From Pseudoalteromonas sp. NC201 (GTDB lineage Bacteria; Pseudomonadota; Gammaproteobacteria; Enterobacterales; Alteromonadaceae): a DNA stretch of 64,000 nt. The DNA lies in NCBI RefSeq assembly GCF_002850255.1, contig NZ_CP022522.1:3099125-3163124 (forward strand), in the 5' to 3' direction. Below, piece after piece: positions 4,492-15,848 of this stretch (within the stretch, counting starts at the first letter, position 1; every line of letters begins with the position of its first letter). Below the pieces are notes generated by a model, which saw nothing but the letters and a program-made list of their open reading frames with translations, did no database searches and was not told the origin of the DNA. The position numbers and the translations under genes were made by a program.

Positions 4492-6192
4492 ATGAAACAC
4501 TCAATGATTTCGGTTGCAATCGCACTTGCAACAGGTCTCACCCTAACTGGCTGCTCTGAGCCATCAACCTCTTCTGAGAAACCTAGTGCACAAACTGAGC
4601 AAGGACAAGTTGATACTAAACAATCAGGCTATAAGCTAGTTAATGCATCTCAAGACCGGCTAGATATTTATACCCCAGTAACACTCGAAACAGACTTGAG
4701 TCACTTAAACGATAACCAGAAAAAGATGCTAGCTTTACTCATCGATGCTTCGGTTATTATGGATGATTTATTTTGGCAGCAAGCGTTCGGCGAAGACAAA
4801 GCAACATTCCTAAGCAAAATCTCAGACGAAAAAGTACGCCAATTCGCGGACATTAACTATGGGCCTTGGGATCGTTTAAATGGCGACCAAGTTTTTCTTT
4901 CTGGCTTTGAAGAAAAAGCACTGGGTGCAGAATTTTACCCAAGCGACATTACCAAAGACGAGCTAAATAACGCCGAAGTAAAAGATAAAACAGGATTGTA
5001 TTCTGTTATCCGCCGCGATGAAAACGGCAAGCTATACAGCACTTCTTACTCATCCGCGTATAAAGCTGAATTGGATAAAGCCGCAGAGCTTTTACGCCAA
5101 GCAAGTAAACTGGCACAAGACAAAGAGTTTGCAAACTACTTAAACTTGCGTGCAGATGCGTTAGTCAATAATAGCTACCAAGCGTCTGATTTTGCTTGGA
5201 TGGACATGAAGAATAACCCGATTGATGTGGTGATCGGCCCAATTGAAACCTATGAAGACCAGCTATTTGGCTATCGCGCCGCTTTTGAGTCTTACGTTCT
5301 GGTTAAAGACTTAGCGTGGAGTGAGCGTCTCGCTAAATTTGCCGCCTTCTTACCTGAGCTACAAACCGGCTTGCCTGTTGATGATAAATACAAGCAAGAA
5401 GTACCAGGCTCTGATGCCGACCTAAACGCATATGACGTCATTTATTATGCAGGCCATTCAAACGCGGGTAGTAAAACCATTGCGATTAACCTGCCAAATG
5501 ACGAAGAAGTGCAACTCCAAAAAGGTACACGTCGCCTACAGCTTAAAAACGCCATGCGCGCAAAATTCGATAAGATCTTAGTACCAATTGCTGACCAACT
5601 TATCGTCCCTGAGCAACGTAAGCACATCACCTTTGATGCTTTCTTTGCTAATACCATGTTCCATGAGGTGGCCCATGGTCTAGGCATTAAAAATACCATT
5701 ACAGGTAAAGGCACCGTGCGCCAATCACTGCAAGAACACGCCAGTGCACTTGAAGAAGGTAAAGCCGATATCCTAGGTCTATACATGGTCGAGCAATTGC
5801 TTAAAAAAGGCGAGATCACCGAAGGTACGCTTGAGGATTACTACATCACCTTTATGGCTGGTATCTTCCGCTCAGTACGTTTTGGTGCATCCAGTGCACA
5901 TGGTAAAGCGAACATGATCCGCTTTAACTTCTTTAAAGAAGAAGGCGCATTTTCTAAGAACACGGATGGTCTATATCAAGTGAATATGGAAAAGATGGGC
6001 GCAGCGATGGAGAAACTGTCTAACCTTATCCTAACGCTACAAGGTGACGGCGACTATCAAAAAGTAGATCAACTGATCGCCACACACGGCGATATCAAAG
6101 CGGAACTGCAAAAAGATCTAGATAAGCTTTCCAAAGCGAACATTCCTGTTGATGTTACCTTTAAGCAAGGTAAGCAGGTGCTAGGACTGTAA
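4492..6192 (+). CDS. Lipoprotein metallopeptidase of the DPP III (M49) type
   Basis: 566 residues with a lipoprotein signal ending in LTLTGC, so Cys21 is the likely lipid anchor and the enzyme is exported. The zinc site is HEVAH (His391, Glu392, His395) with EEGKAD at 421-426 supplying the third ligand. Classical dipeptidyl peptidase III uses a six-residue HExxGH motif; a five-residue HExxH variant is known from some bacterial members, and the EExxAD partner fits M49. A peptidase role in peptide scavenging is inferred. AAGGGAG lies 5 nt before the ATG. The gene is a single unit ending at the hairpin at 6212-6239. A broken copy of its last codons lies 480 nt downstream. Confidence 0.75.
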   Translation: MKHSMISVAIALATGLTLTGCSEPSTSSEKPSAQTEQGQVDTKQSGYKLVNASQDRLDIYTPVTLETDLSHLNDNQKKMLALLIDASVIMDDLFWQQAFGEDKATFLSKISDEKVRQFADINYGPWDRLNGDQVFLSGFEEKALGAEFYPSDITKDELNNAEVKDKTGLYSVIRRDENGKLYSTSYSSAYKAELDKAAELLRQASKLAQDKEFANYLNLRADALVNNSYQASDFAWMDMKNNPIDVVIGPIETYEDQLFGYRAAFESYVLVKDLAWSERLAKFAAFLPELQTGLPVDDKYKQEVPGSDADLNAYDVIYYAGHSNAGSKTIAINLPNDEEVQLQKGTRRLQLKNAMRAKFDKILVPIADQLIVPEQRKHITFDAFFANTMFHEVAHGLGIKNTITGKGTVRQSLQEHASALEEGKADILGLYMVEQLLKKGEITEGTLEDYYITFMAGIFRSVRFGASSAHGKANMIRFNFFKEEGAFSKNTDGLYQVNMEKMGAAMEKLSNLILTLQGDGDYQKVDQLIATHGDIKAELQKDLDKLSKANIPVDVTFKQGKQVLGL

Positions 6193-7484: not shown

Positions 7485-7596
7485 AGTGAAATTCTATAAA
7501 TCCTATTTACACGGCACTCTATCCGAATTTGTTGCTATTGCAAAGCGGCTTCATTACCATCCAATCAGACTTTAAAAATATAACAAGGTGGCTACC

Positions 7597-9828
7597 GTGC
7601 ACTCTCGCATTAAACACTACACCATCGCTCTTCCATTAGCACTTGCCTCTGTCACCGCTAGCGCAGAGCAACTAACGCTAGAGCGACTTTTTGACGATCC
7701 GTCTCTTTCAGGTAAAGCACCTGTAAAACTGCAATTTTCTCCTGACGGTTCTCGTGTTACTTATCTTCAAGGTAAAAAAGAAGACTATAACCGTTACGAC
7801 CTTTGGGAATACAATCTCAAAGACAATACAAACCGCTTGTTGGTAGATTCTGCGGCACTATTTTCTGGCCCAGAGAACCTCTCAGATGAAGAAAAAGCAC
7901 GTCGTGAGCGTCAACGTATTTTTGGCCGTGGTATTTTAGAATACAAATGGTCAAAAGATGGCAAAGCGCTACTTTTCCCACTCAATGGCGACTTGTACTA
8001 CTATGAAATCGCTTCTGGTAAGAGTAAGAAACTAACGGAAACTGAAGCATTCGAAACCGACGCTCGCTTCTCGCCAAAAGGCAATTTTGTTTCTTTTATT
8101 CGTGAGCAAAACCTCTATGCCATTAATCTTAAATCGGGTAAAGAAACGCAATTAACTAAAGACGGCGGTGGCGTAATTAAAAACGGCATGGCTGAGTTCG
8201 TTGCTCAAGAAGAAATGAGCCGTATGACAGGCTATTGGTGGTCGGGTGATGAGCAACAAATTGCTTTTACTCGCATTGATGAAAGCCCAGTTCAGGAAGC
8301 CATTCGTAACGAAATCTATGCCGAAGAGGTCAAGCTATTCAATCAACGTTATCCATACACCGGGACTGCTAACGTTGAGATTGAATTAGGTGTTGTAAAG
8401 ATCAATGACCAAAAGGTGGATTGGATTGATTTAGGCGAAGATAAAGATATCTATATTGCCCGTGCAAATTGGTTAAAAGACAATAAAACATTGTCATATC
8501 AGTGGCAAAATCGCTCACAGCAAAAACTGGAACTGCGCTTTTACGATACTAAAAGCAAAAAGCAGCAAGTCGCCCTAACCGAAACCAGTGATACTTGGAT
8601 TAACCTACACTTTGACCTTGAATTCTTAAAGGACAAAAAGCATTTCGTTTGGGCATCTGAGCGCGATGGCTTTAAACACCTTTACCTGTACAGAACCAAT
8701 GGCCAACTGGTGCGCCAAATCACTAAAGGCGATTGGATTGTTGAGAGCCTTCAGGGAATTGATGAGAAAAAAGGCATCGTATACTTCTCCGGCCGCAAAG
8801 ACACGCCGCTTGAAAGCCACCTATACAGCGTACCACTTTTTAAAGATGGCGATGCAAAACGTATTACCGAAAAAGGCAGCTATCATAGTGTCGTACTGGC
8901 AAAAGATAACCGTACCTTTATCGATAAAAGCTCTTCTGTAAACCGTCCACCAGCGGTTGCGCTACGCAAAGTGAATGGTGACTTTGTGACTTGGCTTGAA
9001 GAAAATGCGCTGAATAACGAACATCCGTTAACGCCTTATTTGAGCAATCTAGCTACGCCAGAATATGGCACACTTAAAGCGGAAGATGGTCAAACTATGT
9101 ATTACCGCTTATTTAAGCCAGCAAAGCTTGAAAACGGTAAGAAATATCCTGTTATTGTGAACGTGTATGGCGGACCTCATGCACAACGCGTGACCAACAG
9201 CTGGCGTAGTAAAAACTTGTACTTCCAATATCTTGCCCAGCAGGGTTATGTGATTTTCCAATTAGATAACCGAGGTTCTTACAACCGTGGTAAAAAGTTT
9301 GAAGATCCAATCTACAAGCACTTAGGTGTAGTGGAAGTGGCTGACCAAATTAAAGGCGTTGAGTTCTTACGTACACTAGAGTACGTCGACCCTGAGCGTA
9401 TCGGTATTTATGGTCACAGCTATGGTGGTTATATGGCGCTGATGACAATGTTTAAAGCAGGCGACTACTTTAAAGCTGGTGTCTCTGGTGCGCCAGTAAC
9501 AGATTGGGCTCTATATGACACCCATTACACTGAGCGTTACTTGGGTCACCCAGATACAAATGCTAAGGGCTATGAGCAAAGCGCGGTGTTCCCTTATGCT
9601 GATGGACTAAAAGGCCCGCTGATGATCTATCACGGTATGGCGGACGATAACGTGCTATTTACCCATGCAACGAAACTATTTAAGCAGTTGCAGGACGAGG
9701 TTAAGCCATTTGAAATGATGACTTACCCTGGATCGAAGCACAGTTTACGTGGCAAAAAAGTACAAACCCACTTGCATCAAACCATTACTGACTTCTTTAA
9801 TCGTCATTTTGAGGTTGAAGCTAAGTAA
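7597..9828 (+). CDS. Prolyl dipeptidyl peptidase, DPP4-like (S9B)
   Basis: 743 residues from the GTG at 7597, preceded by AAGGTGG at good spacing; a GTG three codons earlier overlaps that ribosome site. A cleavable signal peptide ends near SVTASA, so the enzyme is periplasmic or secreted. The N-terminal part is the beta-propeller (DPP4_N); the C-terminal part is the alpha/beta hydrolase with nucleophile Ser608 in GHSYGG, Asp683/684 in MADDN and His715 in SKHSL. The motif AEFVAQEEMSR carries the Glu pair that binds the substrate N-terminus in DPP4. The expected role is removal of X-Pro dipeptides from peptides. A strong terminator follows. Confidence 0.93.
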   Translation: MHSRIKHYTIALPLALASVTASAEQLTLERLFDDPSLSGKAPVKLQFSPDGSRVTYLQGKKEDYNRYDLWEYNLKDNTNRLLVDSAALFSGPENLSDEEKARRERQRIFGRGILEYKWSKDGKALLFPLNGDLYYYEIASGKSKKLTETEAFETDARFSPKGNFVSFIREQNLYAINLKSGKETQLTKDGGGVIKNGMAEFVAQEEMSRMTGYWWSGDEQQIAFTRIDESPVQEAIRNEIYAEEVKLFNQRYPYTGTANVEIELGVVKINDQKVDWIDLGEDKDIYIARANWLKDNKTLSYQWQNRSQQKLELRFYDTKSKKQQVALTETSDTWINLHFDLEFLKDKKHFVWASERDGFKHLYLYRTNGQLVRQITKGDWIVESLQGIDEKKGIVYFSGRKDTPLESHLYSVPLFKDGDAKRITEKGSYHSVVLAKDNRTFIDKSSSVNRPPAVALRKVNGDFVTWLEENALNNEHPLTPYLSNLATPEYGTLKAEDGQTMYYRLFKPAKLENGKKYPVIVNVYGGPHAQRVTNSWRSKNLYFQYLAQQGYVIFQLDNRGSYNRGKKFEDPIYKHLGVVEVADQIKGVEFLRTLEYVDPERIGIYGHSYGGYMALMTMFKAGDYFKAGVSGAPVTDWALYDTHYTERYLGHPDTNAKGYEQSAVFPYADGLKGPLMIYHGMADDNVLFTHATKLFKQLQDEVKPFEMMTYPGSKHSLRGKKVQTHLHQTITDFFNRHFEVEAK

Positions 9829-10205: not shown

Positions 10206-11846
10206 ATGTCCAAACAGTTTTTTCGAAATCTCACCATTTTCCAGCGCCTCGCGTTACTGATCATTGTCGTTATTATCGGCGTTATCCTTCAAAGCGCAGT
10301 AAGCTTATCGCAACAGTATGATGCTCTCGAAAAGCAGCAATATCATAAAACTCAAAACCTTGTTGAAAATGCCTATAGTTTAGTGGCTTACTTTCACCAA
10401 CAATATGTATCTGGGAAACTCCCAGAGGCGCAAGCGAAATCCGCAGCCCTTGATGCCGTTGCCGCTTTACGATACGAAGGAAACAATTACTTTTGGATCA
10501 ACGACTATCATCCAAAAATGGTGATGCACCCATTTAAAAGCGAGCTCAACGGTAAAGATCTCAGCCAATCAAAAGATCCCACCGGCAAGCGCTTATTCGT
10601 TGAAATGGTACAAGTGGCAGAAAAAAGTGGTGCGGGATTTGTTCCCTACCTTTGGCCAAAGCCTGGTAAAGAAGCCCCTGTCGAAAAAATATCTTACGTC
10701 AAAGCGTTTACACCTTGGGGTTGGATCATCGGCTCCGGTGTATACCTCGACACTATCGAAGCTGAGTTTGCCTATATTCGAAATTTGCTATTAATTGAGA
10801 TGGCTGCACTCATCGTGCTGCTATTCCCGTTTAGCGCAGTCATTAGTAAGAGCATAATCACCCCCATTCAACAAGCCAAAGACATGATGAAAGATATCGC
10901 TCAAGGCGAAGGCGATTTGACTCGACAACTCGACGAAAGCGGTAAAGATGAGATAACCGCGCTTGCCAAATACTTTAACTTGTATACTGAGAAGATGCGT
11001 CATTCCATCGCGACAGTGGCCCATAACGCTAAAGAAGTTGAAACACTGGCTAATCAGGTAAAAGCGGCTGGCGAAGAAAACTTGGCATTTATTGAGTCGC
11101 AAAATGACAATAACCGCCAAGTCGCCACAGCTGCCGAACAAATGACCATGCAAGTTCGCGAGATCAGTAGCAATGCAGATACTGCAGAACATTCCGCCGC
11201 AGACGCACGCAATTACAGTGAAAAAGGCAAACAAACGATTTCTCAAACCATTGCCGCCATTAAAAAGCTGTCGGAGCAAATTCAATCTGTGAGCGTGACA
11301 ACGACAAGCCTTGCACAAGAGAGTCAGCATATAGGATCGGTGCTCGATGTTATTCGAGGTATTGCGGAGCAAACCAATTTACTTGCACTAAACGCGGCAA
11401 TAGAAGCCGCTCGAGCAGGTGAACAAGGACGAGGCTTTGCCGTAGTTGCAGATGAAGTTCGCACCCTTGCAAGTCGTACAGGTCAAAGCACAGATGAAAT
11501 CCACAACATGATCGAGCGACTGCAAAAAGAAGCGCAGCAGGCCGTAGCAGCAGTTAAAGTTAGCCAACAAATCTCGGAGCAAACGGTTGAACAGGTACAG
11601 CTTGCCGATAACGCATTAACCGAAATTGAGCGCCTTATTGACGCTATCTCAGATATGAGTACCCACATCGCCAAAGCCACCGACGAGCAAAGTCTTGCAG
11701 CACAAGAAGTTAATGAGCGAATAGCTCAGCTTTCTGACTCCACCCATCACTCTTTGGATACCACGCATTCGCTCAACAACACCAGTGAGCAACTAACACG
11801 AGCAAGTCACGAATTGAGTGACATAGTTAACCGCTTTAGAGTATGA
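10206..11846 (+). CDS. Methyl-accepting chemotaxis protein with a single Cache sensor
   Basis: 546 residues. A membrane helix at about 12-32 and another at about 195-215 flank a periplasmic single-Cache domain ([15 protein letters not shown] near residue 98, then [15 protein letters not shown] near 170). A HAMP linker follows, then the cytoplasmic signalling coiled coil with the invariant hairpin tip [19 protein letters not shown] near residue 390. Single-Cache receptors of this type often bind small carboxylates, but the ligand is not predictable here. The gene stands alone; AAGGATTG precedes the ATG and a terminator follows at 11857. Confidence 0.95.
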
Positions 11847-11856
11847 TATCCACCCT

Positions 11857-11885
11857 GCAGAGCACCTGTCAGTGCTCTGCTTCTT
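11857..11885 (+). terminator. Terminator of the Cache chemoreceptor gene
   Basis: Perfect 9-bp stem GCAGAGCAC / GTGCTCTGC with a 6-nt loop, followed by TTCTT. Confidence 0.8.
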
Positions 11886-11993
11886 GCCCAATAGATGATT
11901 GATATTCCTTATCTTGTCGATAAAAATAATCCGTGAGCGTCTAAGCTATTTTACCGCTATATTGCCAATTTATTTGCTGAGCAAAAATAGCCC

Positions 11994-13040
11994 GTGAAAA
12001 TCTGTTTTATTATGTACCCTTGGGAGCGTGTAGAAGCTGAAAACGACAGCACGCTAAGACTTATCCACGAAGCCGTATCGCGCGGTCACGTCGTTGCCAT
12101 CACCACCGTAAACAACCTCACTATTCGCGAAAGTGTCGCCAGTGCCTTCTGTGATGTATTTGTTGCGGGCCAAAAAGTATCTGACAACTTAGTGAGCTTT
12201 TACAACAAAGCTGAGTTTAAAAAAGTACAGCTTCCTTTGGCAGGTTTTGACGCAATATTTATGCGCGCCAATCCGCCGCTTGATACCTTGGCGATGAACT
12301 TTTTAGACTCTGTTCGTGATGATACTTTCATCATCAACGACATCGATGGCCTGCGTATCGCAAATAACAAGCTATACACGGCATCTTTCCAAGGCATCGC
12401 GAGAGAGTTTATTCCAAATACGCATGTATCTAAAAACAAAGAGTATTTAGAGCGTATATTCTCTGAATCAGAGCAAGAGAAAATGATCTTAAAGCCGCTT
12501 GATGGCTTTGGCGGTCGCGGTGTTATCGTCGTTGAAAAACGCGCGAAACAAAGCTTTAGCTCACTCCTTGAGTTTTATATTGGTGGCGACGAGGCTGGTA
12601 AAGGCAGCAACTACGTCATTTTACAAGACTATGTTGAAGGTGCCGACGAGGGTGATGTTCGTATTCTAATGCTTAACGGCGAACCGATTGGCGCCATGAA
12701 ACGTGTGCCTGCAGCAAATGAAGTGCGTGCCAACGTACATGCCGGTGGCAAAGTAGTGAAACACAAACTCACCAACCAAGAAAAAGCGCTATGTAAGCAC
12801 ATCGGCCCTAAGCTTGTGCGTGATGGTTTGTATTTTGTTGGCATTGACGTGATAGGCGGCAAGCTTATTGAAGTTAACGTGCTCTCGCCTGGCGGGATAA
12901 CCCGTATTAACCGTTTAAACCGCTGTAAGCTGCAAGTGCAAGTTATCGATTTTGTAGAGAGTGTGGTGCACGCCAAAGAGCTAGTAACGCATCGCAAAAA
13001 CCAATTCCGTCAAGTAATAGAAGATGCTCATGCTATCTGA
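11994..13040 (+). CDS. ATP-grasp ligase, glutathione-synthetase-like
   Basis: 348 residues starting at GTG; the start is chosen because MKICFIMYPWERV matches the opening strand of GshB-type proteins. ATP-grasp features are present: MILKPLDGFGGRG near residue 165 (nucleotide loop), QDYVEGADEGDVRI near 212, RANVHAGGK near 245 and EVNVLSPGG near 300 (metal site). These enzymes join a carboxylate to an amine through an acyl phosphate. It overlaps the next gene by 17 nt, so the two are very probably co-expressed. No glutamate-cysteine ligase is nearby, and with this partner a role other than glutathione synthesis, such as adding an amino acid to a peptide or metabolite, is a reasonable inference. 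Confidence 0.85.
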   Translation: MKICFIMYPWERVEAENDSTLRLIHEAVSRGHVVAITTVNNLTIRESVASAFCDVFVAGQKVSDNLVSFYNKAEFKKVQLPLAGFDAIFMRANPPLDTLAMNFLDSVRDDTFIINDIDGLRIANNKLYTASFQGIAREFIPNTHVSKNKEYLERIFSESEQEKMILKPLDGFGGRGVIVVEKRAKQSFSSLLEFYIGGDEAGKGSNYVILQDYVEGADEGDVRILMLNGEPIGAMKRVPAANEVRANVHAGGKVVKHKLTNQEKALCKHIGPKLVRDGLYFVGIDVIGGKLIEVNVLSPGGITRINRLNRCKLQVQVIDFVESVVHAKELVTHRKNQFRQVIEDAHAI

Positions 13041-15003
13041 ACAAGCCATCATTGCCGCGCTTGAAGCCGGCAAACCCATCAATGGACAATTTGCTGAAGG
13101 TGCTTTTCACCTCGAAGTGAGGGAATACGTGCCTTATGTCGCCACTGCTGTACACGCAGGCCACCGCACCCGTGCTAGCCTAAAAGGCTTGTTCGCCATT
13201 AGCGATGCTGAGCGTTTACAAGAGGAAGATCCGTTTACCGACGGCATGATTGAATCATTACCCATCACGCTTATCGCGCGTGACTCACGTTACGAATACG
13301 ATCTTAACCGTGCGCCAGAGCTTGCGATATACAAAGAAGCATGGGGTAAACAAGTGTGGAGCCAAGCGCTACCAAATGCAGACATAGATGTTAGCTTGTC
13401 TAAGCATGCAGCCTATTACCGTGTGCTCAGTGCGCTGTTAACCACGCTTGAGCGCAAGTTTGGTGCCTGCTTGCTATTTGATGTGCACAGCTATAATTAT
13501 CAAATTCGTAGCTACCCTTATGCACCAACCTTTAATATTGGCACTGCACAACTTGATACCTTGCGTTTTCGCGCCGTATTAGATGAGCTGAAAAAACAGC
13601 TAGGACTGAAAAAACTGGCAGGCCAGCTGGTGGATTGTGCTGAAAATACCGTCTTTCAGGGCCATGGTTATCAAGCGCAATATATTACCAGCCACTTTGA
13701 TAACACCTTAGTGGTACCGCTTGAAGTAAAAAAAGTCTTTATGGACGAAAACAGCAGCGAATTATTCCCTGTAGTGTTTGAAAAACTACAGCGCAACATG
13801 CATGTTGCTTTGAGCAAAACGGCAAAAACATTTGCTAAAAATCACTGCTATAAGCCACTTCGCAAAGCAAAATCAACGTCGCAGCTTGACCCTGCGCTGA
13901 TTAACGTGGACTCTGCGCTGTACCGCATAGCCAGAAACCTTGAAACGCTGCATTATGTTAACCCAAGCAATATCGCACAAGAGAAACGTCGCTTTTTCTC
14001 GAAACGTCATTATCAGCCTGCGTTTAAATATCGCCCGCTGAAAATTGACCCGTATGAGTTTAAAGAGCAACTCTATCGCTTGCCCGTTGGAAAAATCCAA
14101 GATCCGATCGTAAAAGATTTATATCGTAAAGTGATCGACAGCTACGCGACTAAAATCGAACTGATCACCCAAATTGGTCGCGAAGCCTTTTTGTATAACT
14201 CGCTACGCTATTATGGTGAGCCGGATTACAACGATATAAATAATGCGACCTTCTTGCTGCACGCGCGCGAAACAGAGACCTTGCCAAAAAAAGACATTAC
14301 AGCCGAGCAAGCCTTGGTACGTTTTAATCAAGCGATTGAGGCTATGGGCTTACCTTGTAAGGTCGCTATATCAAGCAAGCTCGTTGCCAAAGCAATGGTC
14401 GACAATAGTAAGCGTCTTCTGCTTGTAAATAGCAGTGCGATGCTATCTGAGCTTGATATCAATGCCTTGATAGAGCATGAAATTGGCGTGCACTTACTCA
14501 CGACTTTAAATGCTGACGCCCAGCAACTTAAAGTGCTGCACTTAGGTTTACCTGGCAATACCTATACTCAAGAGGGCCTTGCCATCTACCGCGAGTATCA
14601 ATCTGGGCAAATAAATCTGACACGATTGAAAGTATTAGCGCTTAGGGTGATTGCGGTTAACATGCTACTTAAAGGCGATAAATTCTATCAAGTGTATGAG
14701 TTTTTAGCTGACTCGGGTGTATTAAACGTCAATGAAGCCTTTGCGCTGACCACTCGGATTTTCCGTGGTGGTGGCTTTACTAAAGATCATCTCTACTTAA
14801 AAGGCTTTAAAGACATAGTGCAGCTTGCCAATACCCGCAGCTTAGATAATTTATATCTCGGTAAAACGGGCATTGCGCACTTAGATGCACTGGACGCGTT
14901 AGTAGAACAAGGTATATTCACAAGACCTAAATATCTGCCGGATACGAACCGAGATCCCGAGCCAGATGCAATCCTAAGTTATTTAATTTCTTCAATTAAA
15001 TAG
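13024..15003 (+). CDS. N-formylglutamate-amidohydrolase-like domain fused to a MATCAP-type (DUF1704, QEGLA-motif) metallopeptidase
   Basis: 659 residues. Residues about 20-260 look like an N-formylglutamate amidohydrolase domain: VHAGHRT near 43 and FDVHSYN with Asp153 and His155. Residues about 300-655 match the DUF1704/QEGLA family, with HEIGVH (His485, Glu486, His490) and the downstream Glu517 of TQEGLA. The eukaryotic members of this fold (MATCAP) are zinc tyrosine carboxypeptidases acting on tubulin; bacterial members have no settled function, though one family name links them to flavohemoglobin expression. All expected zinc and catalytic residues appear intact, so an active peptidase is likely. 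ATG at 13024 or 13030 could be used. It overlaps the ATP-grasp gene. Confidence 0.82.
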   Translation: MLMLSEQAIIAALEAGKPINGQFAEGAFHLEVREYVPYVATAVHAGHRTRASLKGLFAISDAERLQEEDPFTDGMIESLPITLIARDSRYEYDLNRAPELAIYKEAWGKQVWSQALPNADIDVSLSKHAAYYRVLSALLTTLERKFGACLLFDVHSYNYQIRSYPYAPTFNIGTAQLDTLRFRAVLDELKKQLGLKKLAGQLVDCAENTVFQGHGYQAQYITSHFDNTLVVPLEVKKVFMDENSSELFPVVFEKLQRNMHVALSKTAKTFAKNHCYKPLRKAKSTSQLDPALINVDSALYRIARNLETLHYVNPSNIAQEKRRFFSKRHYQPAFKYRPLKIDPYEFKEQLYRLPVGKIQDPIVKDLYRKVIDSYATKIELITQIGREAFLYNSLRYYGEPDYNDINNATFLLHARETETLPKKDITAEQALVRFNQAIEAMGLPCKVAISSKLVAKAMVDNSKRLLLVNSSAMLSELDINALIEHEIGVHLLTTLNADAQQLKVLHLGLPGNTYTQEGLAIYREYQSGQINLTRLKVLALRVIAVNMLLKGDKFYQVYEFLADSGVLNVNEAFALTTRIFRGGGFTKDHLYLKGFKDIVQLANTRSLDNLYLGKTGIAHLDALDALVEQGIFTRPKYLPDTNRDPEPDAILSYLISSIK

Positions 15004-15062: not shown

Positions 15063-15848
15063 TTGACACAACAGGAAATAGATTTACTCGCTTTTGAGCT
15101 GGCAAACCTTCGTCTCAATGCCGATCTCACGCTCGCACCAAAGTACAGTTATTTTTCAGATAAACCCTACCCGCTTGGTCGCTGCCTAGAAATTCGCGAT
15201 GAAATGTTTAAACTCGTCACCACGGAGCTCAAGCAAAATTCAGAACGTTTATCTGTGCTCAGAAATTACATGCTTAAAGAGAATGCCGAGCTCAAAAAAG
15301 TATGGGGTTCGCTACGCGATGAGTACTTTCAAAATGCGATGTTGGTGGGAGATTGGTATATAGATACCGCAAACGATACGGTGAATGCAAACAAACCCAG
15401 AGTTGAAATCAAACCCATCGCACAATCAGGCTTTTCAGCCATCACTAATTTCGAGCAGTTTGTTAAGATTGCTCGCGCTTATTGGCAAGTGGAGGTGTTT
15501 AAAAACACCGCCTTTCCAGCTATCGCGCCTTATTTACCGTTAATTTGTGTCAACGCAAAAGGCGCTACTTGGTTAGCTGCGGCCAATGACGATATGATCA
15601 AGGTCGCTACCAACAGTGAGTTTAGGCTATCTGAGCAAATCCTCTGTCAGCTGCCAGAGCCTGACTCTGTTATCGTATCTCGCTGGCAACAGACCCTAAC
15701 TGGCATCGATGCTTTAGATGACATCTTATTGCAAACAGGAAAGCCCGAGGGGTTTTGCCAACTATACAGAGCTGCCGAAAAGGCAACGGATTTAGCATTT
15801 AGGGATAGGGTCGTACGCGCCTATATGAGCTTACCCAAAGGCGCGTAG
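15063..15848 (+). CDS. Conserved-looking protein of unknown function, 261 residues
   Basis: The TTG at 15063 is the only start near the 5' end: an in-frame stop lies at 15039-15041 and the next in-frame ATG is about 47 codons further in. No clear ribosome site precedes the TTG because the hairpin occupies that space. The product has no signal peptide or membrane segment. It is Trp- and Tyr-containing, mixed alpha/beta in appearance, with a run VWGSLRDEYFQNAMLVGDWYIDTAN in its first half (given here as a landmark around residues 80-105). I do not recognise a family. Position suggests, but does not prove, a link to the ATP-grasp/MATCAP pair. Confidence 0.6.
   Translation: MTQQEIDLLAFELANLRLNADLTLAPKYSYFSDKPYPLGRCLEIRDEMFKLVTTELKQNSERLSVLRNYMLKENAELKKVWGSLRDEYFQNAMLVGDWYIDTANDTVNANKPRVEIKPIAQSGFSAITNFEQFVKIARAYWQVEVFKNTAFPAIAPYLPLICVNAKGATWLAAANDDMIKVATNSEFRLSEQILCQLPEPDSVIVSRWQQTLTGIDALDDILLQTGKPEGFCQLYRAAEKATDLAFRDRVVRAYMSLPKGA

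Follow-up and report, generated by a model that had tools for sequence, protein, structure and literature searches.

In the RimK/RimB system, RimB is reported to remove the glutamates that RimK adds to RpsF and also to stimulate RimK (PMC11957791), and the Rlo proteases of Pseudomonas aeruginosa are described as serving hypo-osmotic survival (PMC12239564). The human carboxypeptidases TMCP1 and TMCP2 are likewise reported to strip C-terminal residues and poly-glutamate from tubulin, with TMCP2 most active on a terminal glutamate (PMC10499314). Here we consider a 64,000-nucleotide stretch of Pseudoalteromonas sp. NC201 (contig NZ_CP022522.1, positions 3,099,125 to 3,163,124; hereafter the window), in which two overlapping genes encode a GshB-like ATP-grasp ligase and a fusion of an N-formylglutamate-amidohydrolase-like (FGase) domain with a MATCAP metallopeptidase domain. 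These three domains are found together in distant genomes and constitute a widespread three-enzyme module, which would work like the known ligase/peptidase pairs but is built from other families.

The resemblance to each of the described systems is partial. Compared with RimK/RimB, the ligase is nearer to GshB and has GSH-S_N in place of Rimk_N, and the peptidases are of metalloenzyme families whereas RimB is retropepsin-like; moreover, the genome of the window has its own RimB-RimK-like pair elsewhere (L004). Genes of the Rlo type (the retropepsin RloA, the seven-transmembrane (7TM)/inactive transglutaminase RloB and the ATP-grasp protein RloC) adjoin the module in two loci, and the hypo-osmotic context of Rlo has a counterpart in expression data for Photobacterium damselae. 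The bacterial MATCAP domain has the same fold and metal motif as human MATCAP/TMCP1 and TMCP2, and an R..RG...KD..Y block of the human protein can be aligned with, and is conserved in, the bacterial loci; identity is about 22%, and the FGase domain and the ligase partner are bacterial features. Canonical GshB falls in a different clade from the module ligase, in which several positions invariant in the canonical enzyme are replaced. As for N-formylglutamate amidohydrolase, its fold and motif residues are those of the FGase domain, which is here fused to or encoded beside a MATCAP. We found no description of the module in the open-licence literature searched; the amidoligase survey of Iyer et al. 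(2009) would be the likeliest place for an earlier prediction of such neighbourhoods.

The gene pair and its domains

All of the features described here lie on the forward strand. The first gene (11994..13040, GTG start) encodes a GshB-like ATP-grasp carboxylate-amine ligase of 348 amino acids, with Pfam matches to GSH-S_N (residues 1-121, 84.9 bits) and GSH-S_ATP (125-309, 192.5 bits) and an NCBIfam match to the subfamily NF009110, ‘glutathione synthetase’ (472 bits, cut-off 408). By open reading frame (ORF) coordinates it overlaps by 17 bases (13024..13040) the second gene (13024..15003, ATG start), whose 659-residue product is an FGase::MATCAP fusion that matches TIGR02421, the QEGLA protein (381 bits, cut-off 338.65). 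The FGase domain, with an M14-like fold, occupies residues 37-235 (13132..13728; PF05013, 72.8 bits), and the MATCAP/QEGLA zincin metallopeptidase domain residues 324-653 (13993..14982; PF08014, 327.9 bits); PF08014, or DUF1704, now carries the name MATCAP. The original prediction, made from the sequence without database searches, of a GshB-like ligase overlapping an FGase/QEGLA fusion is thus confirmed by ORFs, Pfam and NCBIfam, and its positions for the intact metal-binding motifs were correct. These are HEIGVH (14476..14493; His485, Glu486 and His490), which is invariant in sets of 39, 22 and 34 loci, and TQEGLA (14566..14583), whose Glu517 is expected to be the third metal ligand; all four residues are invariant across 67 aligned fusion sequences. 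In the FGase domain, the HAGH (13153..13164) and DVHSYN (13480..13497) motifs supply H44 and D153 with H155, likewise invariant in 67 sequences and putative metal ligands.

Structure prediction, which had been proposed as a check, gave confident models for both proteins (mean predicted local distance difference test, pLDDT, 92.3 for the fusion and 86.2 for the ligase), and their folds match E. coli GshB, N-formylglutamate amidohydrolase and human MATCAP. A phmmer search of the PDB with the single fusion protein yielded no relative at 1e-3, whereas a profile search did recover human MATCAP. Around the pair there is no excess over shuffled sequence of either promoter-like sites (10 against 7.5, standard deviation 3.0) or terminator-like sites (5 against 4.3, standard deviation 2.0).

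Spread of the module and lineage of its ligase

Among the genomes sampled, PF08014 was found in 43 of 276 from the class of the window and 46 of 348 from its phylum, in 4 of 31 from the class of G354, in 7 of 289 from the class of G513 and in 15 of 296 from the phylum of G608, a Cryomorphaceae metagenome-assembled genome (MAG), these samples overlapping one another. It was found in none of 14 control genomes. A record of Synechococcus sp. PCC 7336 is among the homologues of both the ligase and the fusion.

A quick tree of 113 MATCAP domains, taken from the window and 112 of 114 loci, separates a clade A of 79, the window's included, from a clade B of 34, with a Shimodaira-Hasegawa-like approximate likelihood-ratio (SH-aLRT) value of 100. 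The two clades differ sharply in their company. A module ligase stands on the same strand within 4.5 kb of 74 of the 79 clade A MATCAPs and of none of the 34 in clade B (Fisher p 6.8e-24, for rows that kinship makes non-independent: near-identical Pseudoalteromonas and Shewanella loci are counted, and some genomes have more than one locus). The two loci left out are L071, a record too short for the linkage scan though a ligase is adjacent, and L236, whose gene is in two pieces; L036, with no MATCAP domain in its stretch, never entered the count, and among the 34 clade B loci there are 3 whose sequence extends for under 3 kb on one side. Recurrence of the same pair in such distant genomes is a pairing beyond chance, and the neighbourhood search that the original prediction had called for shows that the arrangement is not strain-specific.

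Pseudomonadota and Bacteroidota have the three domains in several arrangements: fused, split into separate genes, or in a different order. In type I loci the ligase precedes the FGase::MATCAP fusion, and the Bacteroidota loci L221, L222, L223 and L227 have ligase, FGase and MATCAP in this same order as separate genes; in type II, found for example on plasmids of Sinorhizobium, Pararhizobium and Shinella, the order is FGase, MATCAP, ligase. The coding domains overlap in 34 of the 38 type I loci measured, and because the overlap is an identical 14 bases in 25 of the 38 (the 17-base frame overlap of the window being 14 bases in domain coordinates), this recurrence suggests translational coupling. 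In type II MATCAP proteins the N-terminal part can be aligned with the FGase domain (hhalign 97.3%, E 1.8e-11, a single comparison), and it lacks both motifs in all 20 cases with enough sequence. The separate type II FGase has His44 in 20/20 and His155 in 19/19 of the pieces reaching these positions. Judging from these sequences, the FGase part appears to be conserved in structure yet separable in catalysis.

Some loci depart from these layouts. L146, L147 and L148, from relatives in the order of the window, are short clade A MATCAPs (393-residue open frames) with neither an FGase domain nor a neighbouring ligase, so the peptidase can be kept alone, and in Pseudoalteromonas sp. XMcav2-N (L016:10001-11815) a stop in the FGase part interrupts the fusion gene. 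Matches also occur in 127 plasmid records, mostly of Sinorhizobium and other rhizobia. A phage or other mobile origin was considered and rejected: 50,697 phage records gave a single partial match, a MATCAP-like stretch with 37% identity over 27% of the query in the unannotated record of Pseudomonas phage Y1 (H41, OQ572403.1:63515-64081), so that in these records the module does not look like a phage trait.

The module ligases form two clades, that of the window being clade 1, which together are separated from 23 canonical GshBs encoded in those genomes; the branch between them has an SH-aLRT of 99, in quick trees for which the program warns of long branches. Module ligase and GshB have nucleotide, metal and catalytic residues in common, and the canonical-invariant positions replaced include an Asp that becomes Tyr8, TSPT that becomes LSPG, and a Glu that becomes Asn at 125. 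At a threshold of 1e-3 the ligase has no Rimk_N match, while both RimKs tested do show one, and it has no TTL match in Pfam. One homologue (P0216) among the 120 listed carries a precomputed tag for PF03133, which we take to be TTL; no TTL chain is among the 50 matches listed in the ligase structure comparison, though one may rank lower.

Neighbouring genes and the response to low salt

Genes next to the module were tallied across 59 loci, a set that excludes 19 loci that were near-copies, lacked a ligase or were broken. The commonest third neighbour, which the original prediction had wished to see tabulated, is a LysR regulator, presumably HdfR-like, in 19 loci, opposite and upstream in 14 of them. 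Second comes a DUF413 protein, in 10 loci, and no other small protein recurs as a neighbour outside close relatives. Six loci of Bacteroidota (L221-L225 and L227) have a gene for an SDF-family symporter on the strand of the first ligase and 18-125 bases upstream of it (in L221 at 11050-12375); among NCBIfam models the symporter scores best against the one for the glutamate/aspartate symporter GltP, under the cut-off (267 against 638 bits), with DctA a close second. Since these six genomes have other neighbours in common too, the symporter linkage may be an arrangement of one lineage.

In L136 and L138 the module is immediately followed, on one strand, by rlo-type genes for a retropepsin, a 7TM protein and an ATP-grasp protein. 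Beyond these two, a scan of 114 loci over 4.2 kb found no rloB and only an rloC remnant in L137, and rloA-rloB-rloC were not among the flanking proteins of the window in a Pfam scan or in near-identical Pseudoalteromonas loci. Two solo MATCAPs of clade B lie beside rimK and the retropepsin gene rimB (L092:7948-10601 and L093:5558-9324), where the MATCAP might be linked to S6 or to poly-glutamate trimming without a module ligase. A retropepsin scan of 157 partly overlapping MATCAP loci found such genes only in the L092 and L093 genomes, where they belong to rimK-rimB, and in the two rlo cases; a later search in 114 longer loci brought no further case.

A hint at physiology comes from published work on P. 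damselae, in which, at 1% against 3% NaCl and with three precultures per condition, A0J47_RS17020, called GshB, was up 38-fold, the QEGLA protein A0J47_RS17025 27.5-fold and RimK 52-fold (PMC10308900). The authors discuss A0J47_RS17020 as a glutathione synthetase (PMC10308900). These two genes are probably the module pair, to judge by their adjacent locus numbers, by what they are called and by the presence of the same pair in the Photobacterium loci L028 and L154.

Other genes nearby deserve mention. MscS-type mechanosensitive channel genes lie a few kb from the module in L134, L137, L138 and L155, and in Pseudoalteromonas sp. HL-AS2 (L158:6779-8059) a solo QEGLA gene has an osmotic neighbour, betI-betB-betA with a BCCT transporter. 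Upstream of the pair the window encodes an M49-type peptidase (4492-6192) and a dipeptidyl peptidase IV (7588-9828). No histidine-degradation gene is annotated around the FGase in four annotated plasmid regions with the module.

Two neighbours were examined as candidate partners or substrates and set aside. The 261-residue protein just downstream (15063-15848), which the original prediction had offered as a possible participant, is adjacent in only 10 of 70 listed loci, all Pseudoalteromonas and the window among them; it has 94 homologues, some of those named being from Marinomonas, Vibrio and others, and no Pfam family, and is probably not a module part. The DUF413/MaoP-like protein often has an acidic C-terminus, as does E. 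coli MaoP. As a general tail substrate it fails, being present in 7 of 8 searched genomes with no PF08014 match and missing from 6 of the 11 module-bearing genomes searched (present in 12 of 19 overall). In the genome of the window about 8 kb separates a DUF413 gene from a rimK-like gene (G000:C1:3463460-3463723 and 3471904-3472626).

Possible substrate and alternative readings

The account that we find the most plausible, and put forward tentatively, is a make/break cycle on a short acidic peptide of glutamate type, adjusted in a salt downshift. The module would most likely be cytoplasmic. The ATP-grasp ligase would activate a carboxylate as an acyl phosphate and join an amino acid to it, the MATCAP metallo-carboxypeptidase would take the terminal residue off the ligase product, and the FGase would cleave a second amide, N-acyl or gamma-glutamyl, in the same kind of substrate. 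The latter would most likely be an acidic peptide of glutamate type, short and not attached to a protein, and a fall in external salt might prompt a change in its length or capping, much as with RimK/RimB and the rlo genes, alongside which the module would operate. Several clues point to glutamate: relatives of the FGase act on N-acyl-glutamates, TMCP2 is most active on a terminal glutamate, and symporter, rlo and rimK-rimB genes are found as neighbours, each in one or two lineages; the expression in P. damselae and the rlo linkage suggest the hypo-osmotic role. In favour of a joint function of the three domains are the close linkage in clade A, the three gene orders that all retain them, the type II combination of an FGase-like region devoid of motifs with a separate FGase that has both, and the joint absence of ligase and FGase His155 in G089. 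As we found no substrate gene travelling with the module and some operons have two ligases, we favour, by a small margin, a free peptide over a protein tail.

Several points weigh against this proposal, the first being that a common substrate and an opposed action of the module enzymes cannot be established from sequence alone. The parts of the module appear to be separable, because 5 of the 79 clade A rows have no adjacent ligase (L067, L135, L146, L147 and L148) and His155 has been lost from 2 of 39 fused FGase domains, those of L067, whose genome (G089) has no module-type ligase at all, and of L149, although there the ligase is kept. The low-salt data are from one species, in which 1,808 genes changed (PMC10308900). 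As for the suggestive neighbours, the six loci with the symporter linkage are all from related Bacteroidota, a single genus supplies both genomes with adjacent rlo genes, and the rimK-rimB adjacency is seen in only 2 of 34 clade B rows. Finally, a strong PF04107 gene, of the glutamate-cysteine-ligase type, is present in four genomes in which we found no canonical GshB (G280, G305, G354 and G364), so that the module ligase might make glutathione there.

Protein-tail editing, in which the ligase would extend the C-terminus of one protein and MATCAP would trim it, is one alternative to a free peptide, with RimK/RimB on S6 (RpsF) as its precedent; LysX and LysK, acting on the carrier LysW, are a comparable case. 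A tail-editing cycle modelled on tubulin and TTL was also the original suggestion, and it stands in part: a pair of putative make and break enzymes is indeed conserved, while RimK/RimB is a better precedent than TTL. Yet among the 59 loci no gene for a carrier or tail-bearing protein was found travelling with the module, the DUF413 gene reaching only its 10, and the affinity of the ligase is with GshB, a small-peptide enzyme, more than with RimK. We therefore regard an edited protein tail as unlikely.

One-way synthesis of a small non-ribosomal peptide, which FGase and MATCAP would unmask or trim, seems to us no likelier. It would suit a GshB-like ligase with no linked protein substrate gene, and it would predict the two-ligase operons, of which there are four (L224 and L225 with one ligase of each clade, L068 and L069 with two of clade 2) and which point to a stepwise joining of building blocks. 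However, 70 of the 74 clade A rows that have a ligase have just one nearby. Among the gene clusters common to at least 3 of the 59 loci we recognised neither an exporter nor a tailoring enzyme, and the sole transporter, the SDF symporter upstream of the module in the six Bacteroidota loci, belongs to a family of uptake systems.

Could the ligase simply make glutathione, the hydrolases being unrelated neighbours or glutathione-breakdown enzymes? The sources label it a glutathione synthase, its catalytic residues are those of GshB, and it passes NF003573, a glutathione synthase equivalog (285 bits, cut-off 272); the four genomes with a strong PF04107 gene argue in the same direction. On the other hand, it does not reach the equivalog TIGR01380 (249 bits, cut-off 299), and the module ligases are a separate clade with substitutions at canonical-invariant positions. 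Furthermore, the search covered 29 genomes that encode a clade A MATCAP (G089, without the ligase, being one), and 23 of them also have a canonical GshB above the TIGR01380 cut-off, and the genome of the window has both a separate canonical GshB and gshA. Besides the four already named, G275 and G608 lack a canonical GshB above this cut-off; G275 has only a weak PF04107 match, and in G608, a MAG of unstated completeness, neither PF04262 nor PF04107 was found. A plain glutathione role is thus unlikely here, although it may apply elsewhere, and as a general explanation we judge it quite improbable. Very improbable indeed is peptide scavenging by a catabolic FGase and MATCAP with the ligase co-located for other reasons: the peptidase genes upstream in the window and the uptake-family symporter would fit, but the former are common, among the loci listed, only to close Pseudoalteromonas relatives, and the ligase is retained in nearly all clade A rows.

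Returning to the glutamate-type peptide, a bolder and rather doubtful extension would see in the module a widespread bacterial glutamate-peptide code for osmotic downshift. One or two ligases would write on a short acidic peptide or peptide tail, and MATCAP, together with FGase or with both an intact FGase and a degenerate FGase-like domain, would erase. The module would then be one more bacterial ligase/peptidase pair in the company of RimK/RimB and Rlo, and the bacterial MATCAPs would be kin to, and perhaps the source of, the eukaryotic erasers of tubulin tails.

If the make/break cycle proves true, the large DUF1704/QEGLA family, named in databases by flavohemoglobin expression, would gain a testable biochemical role, and its partner ligase would no longer carry the default name glutathione synthase. 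There would also be a physiological setting for the bacterial kin of the carboxypeptidases that act on tubulin tails. The low-salt, rlo and symporter links indicate the condition and the metabolites to examine first.

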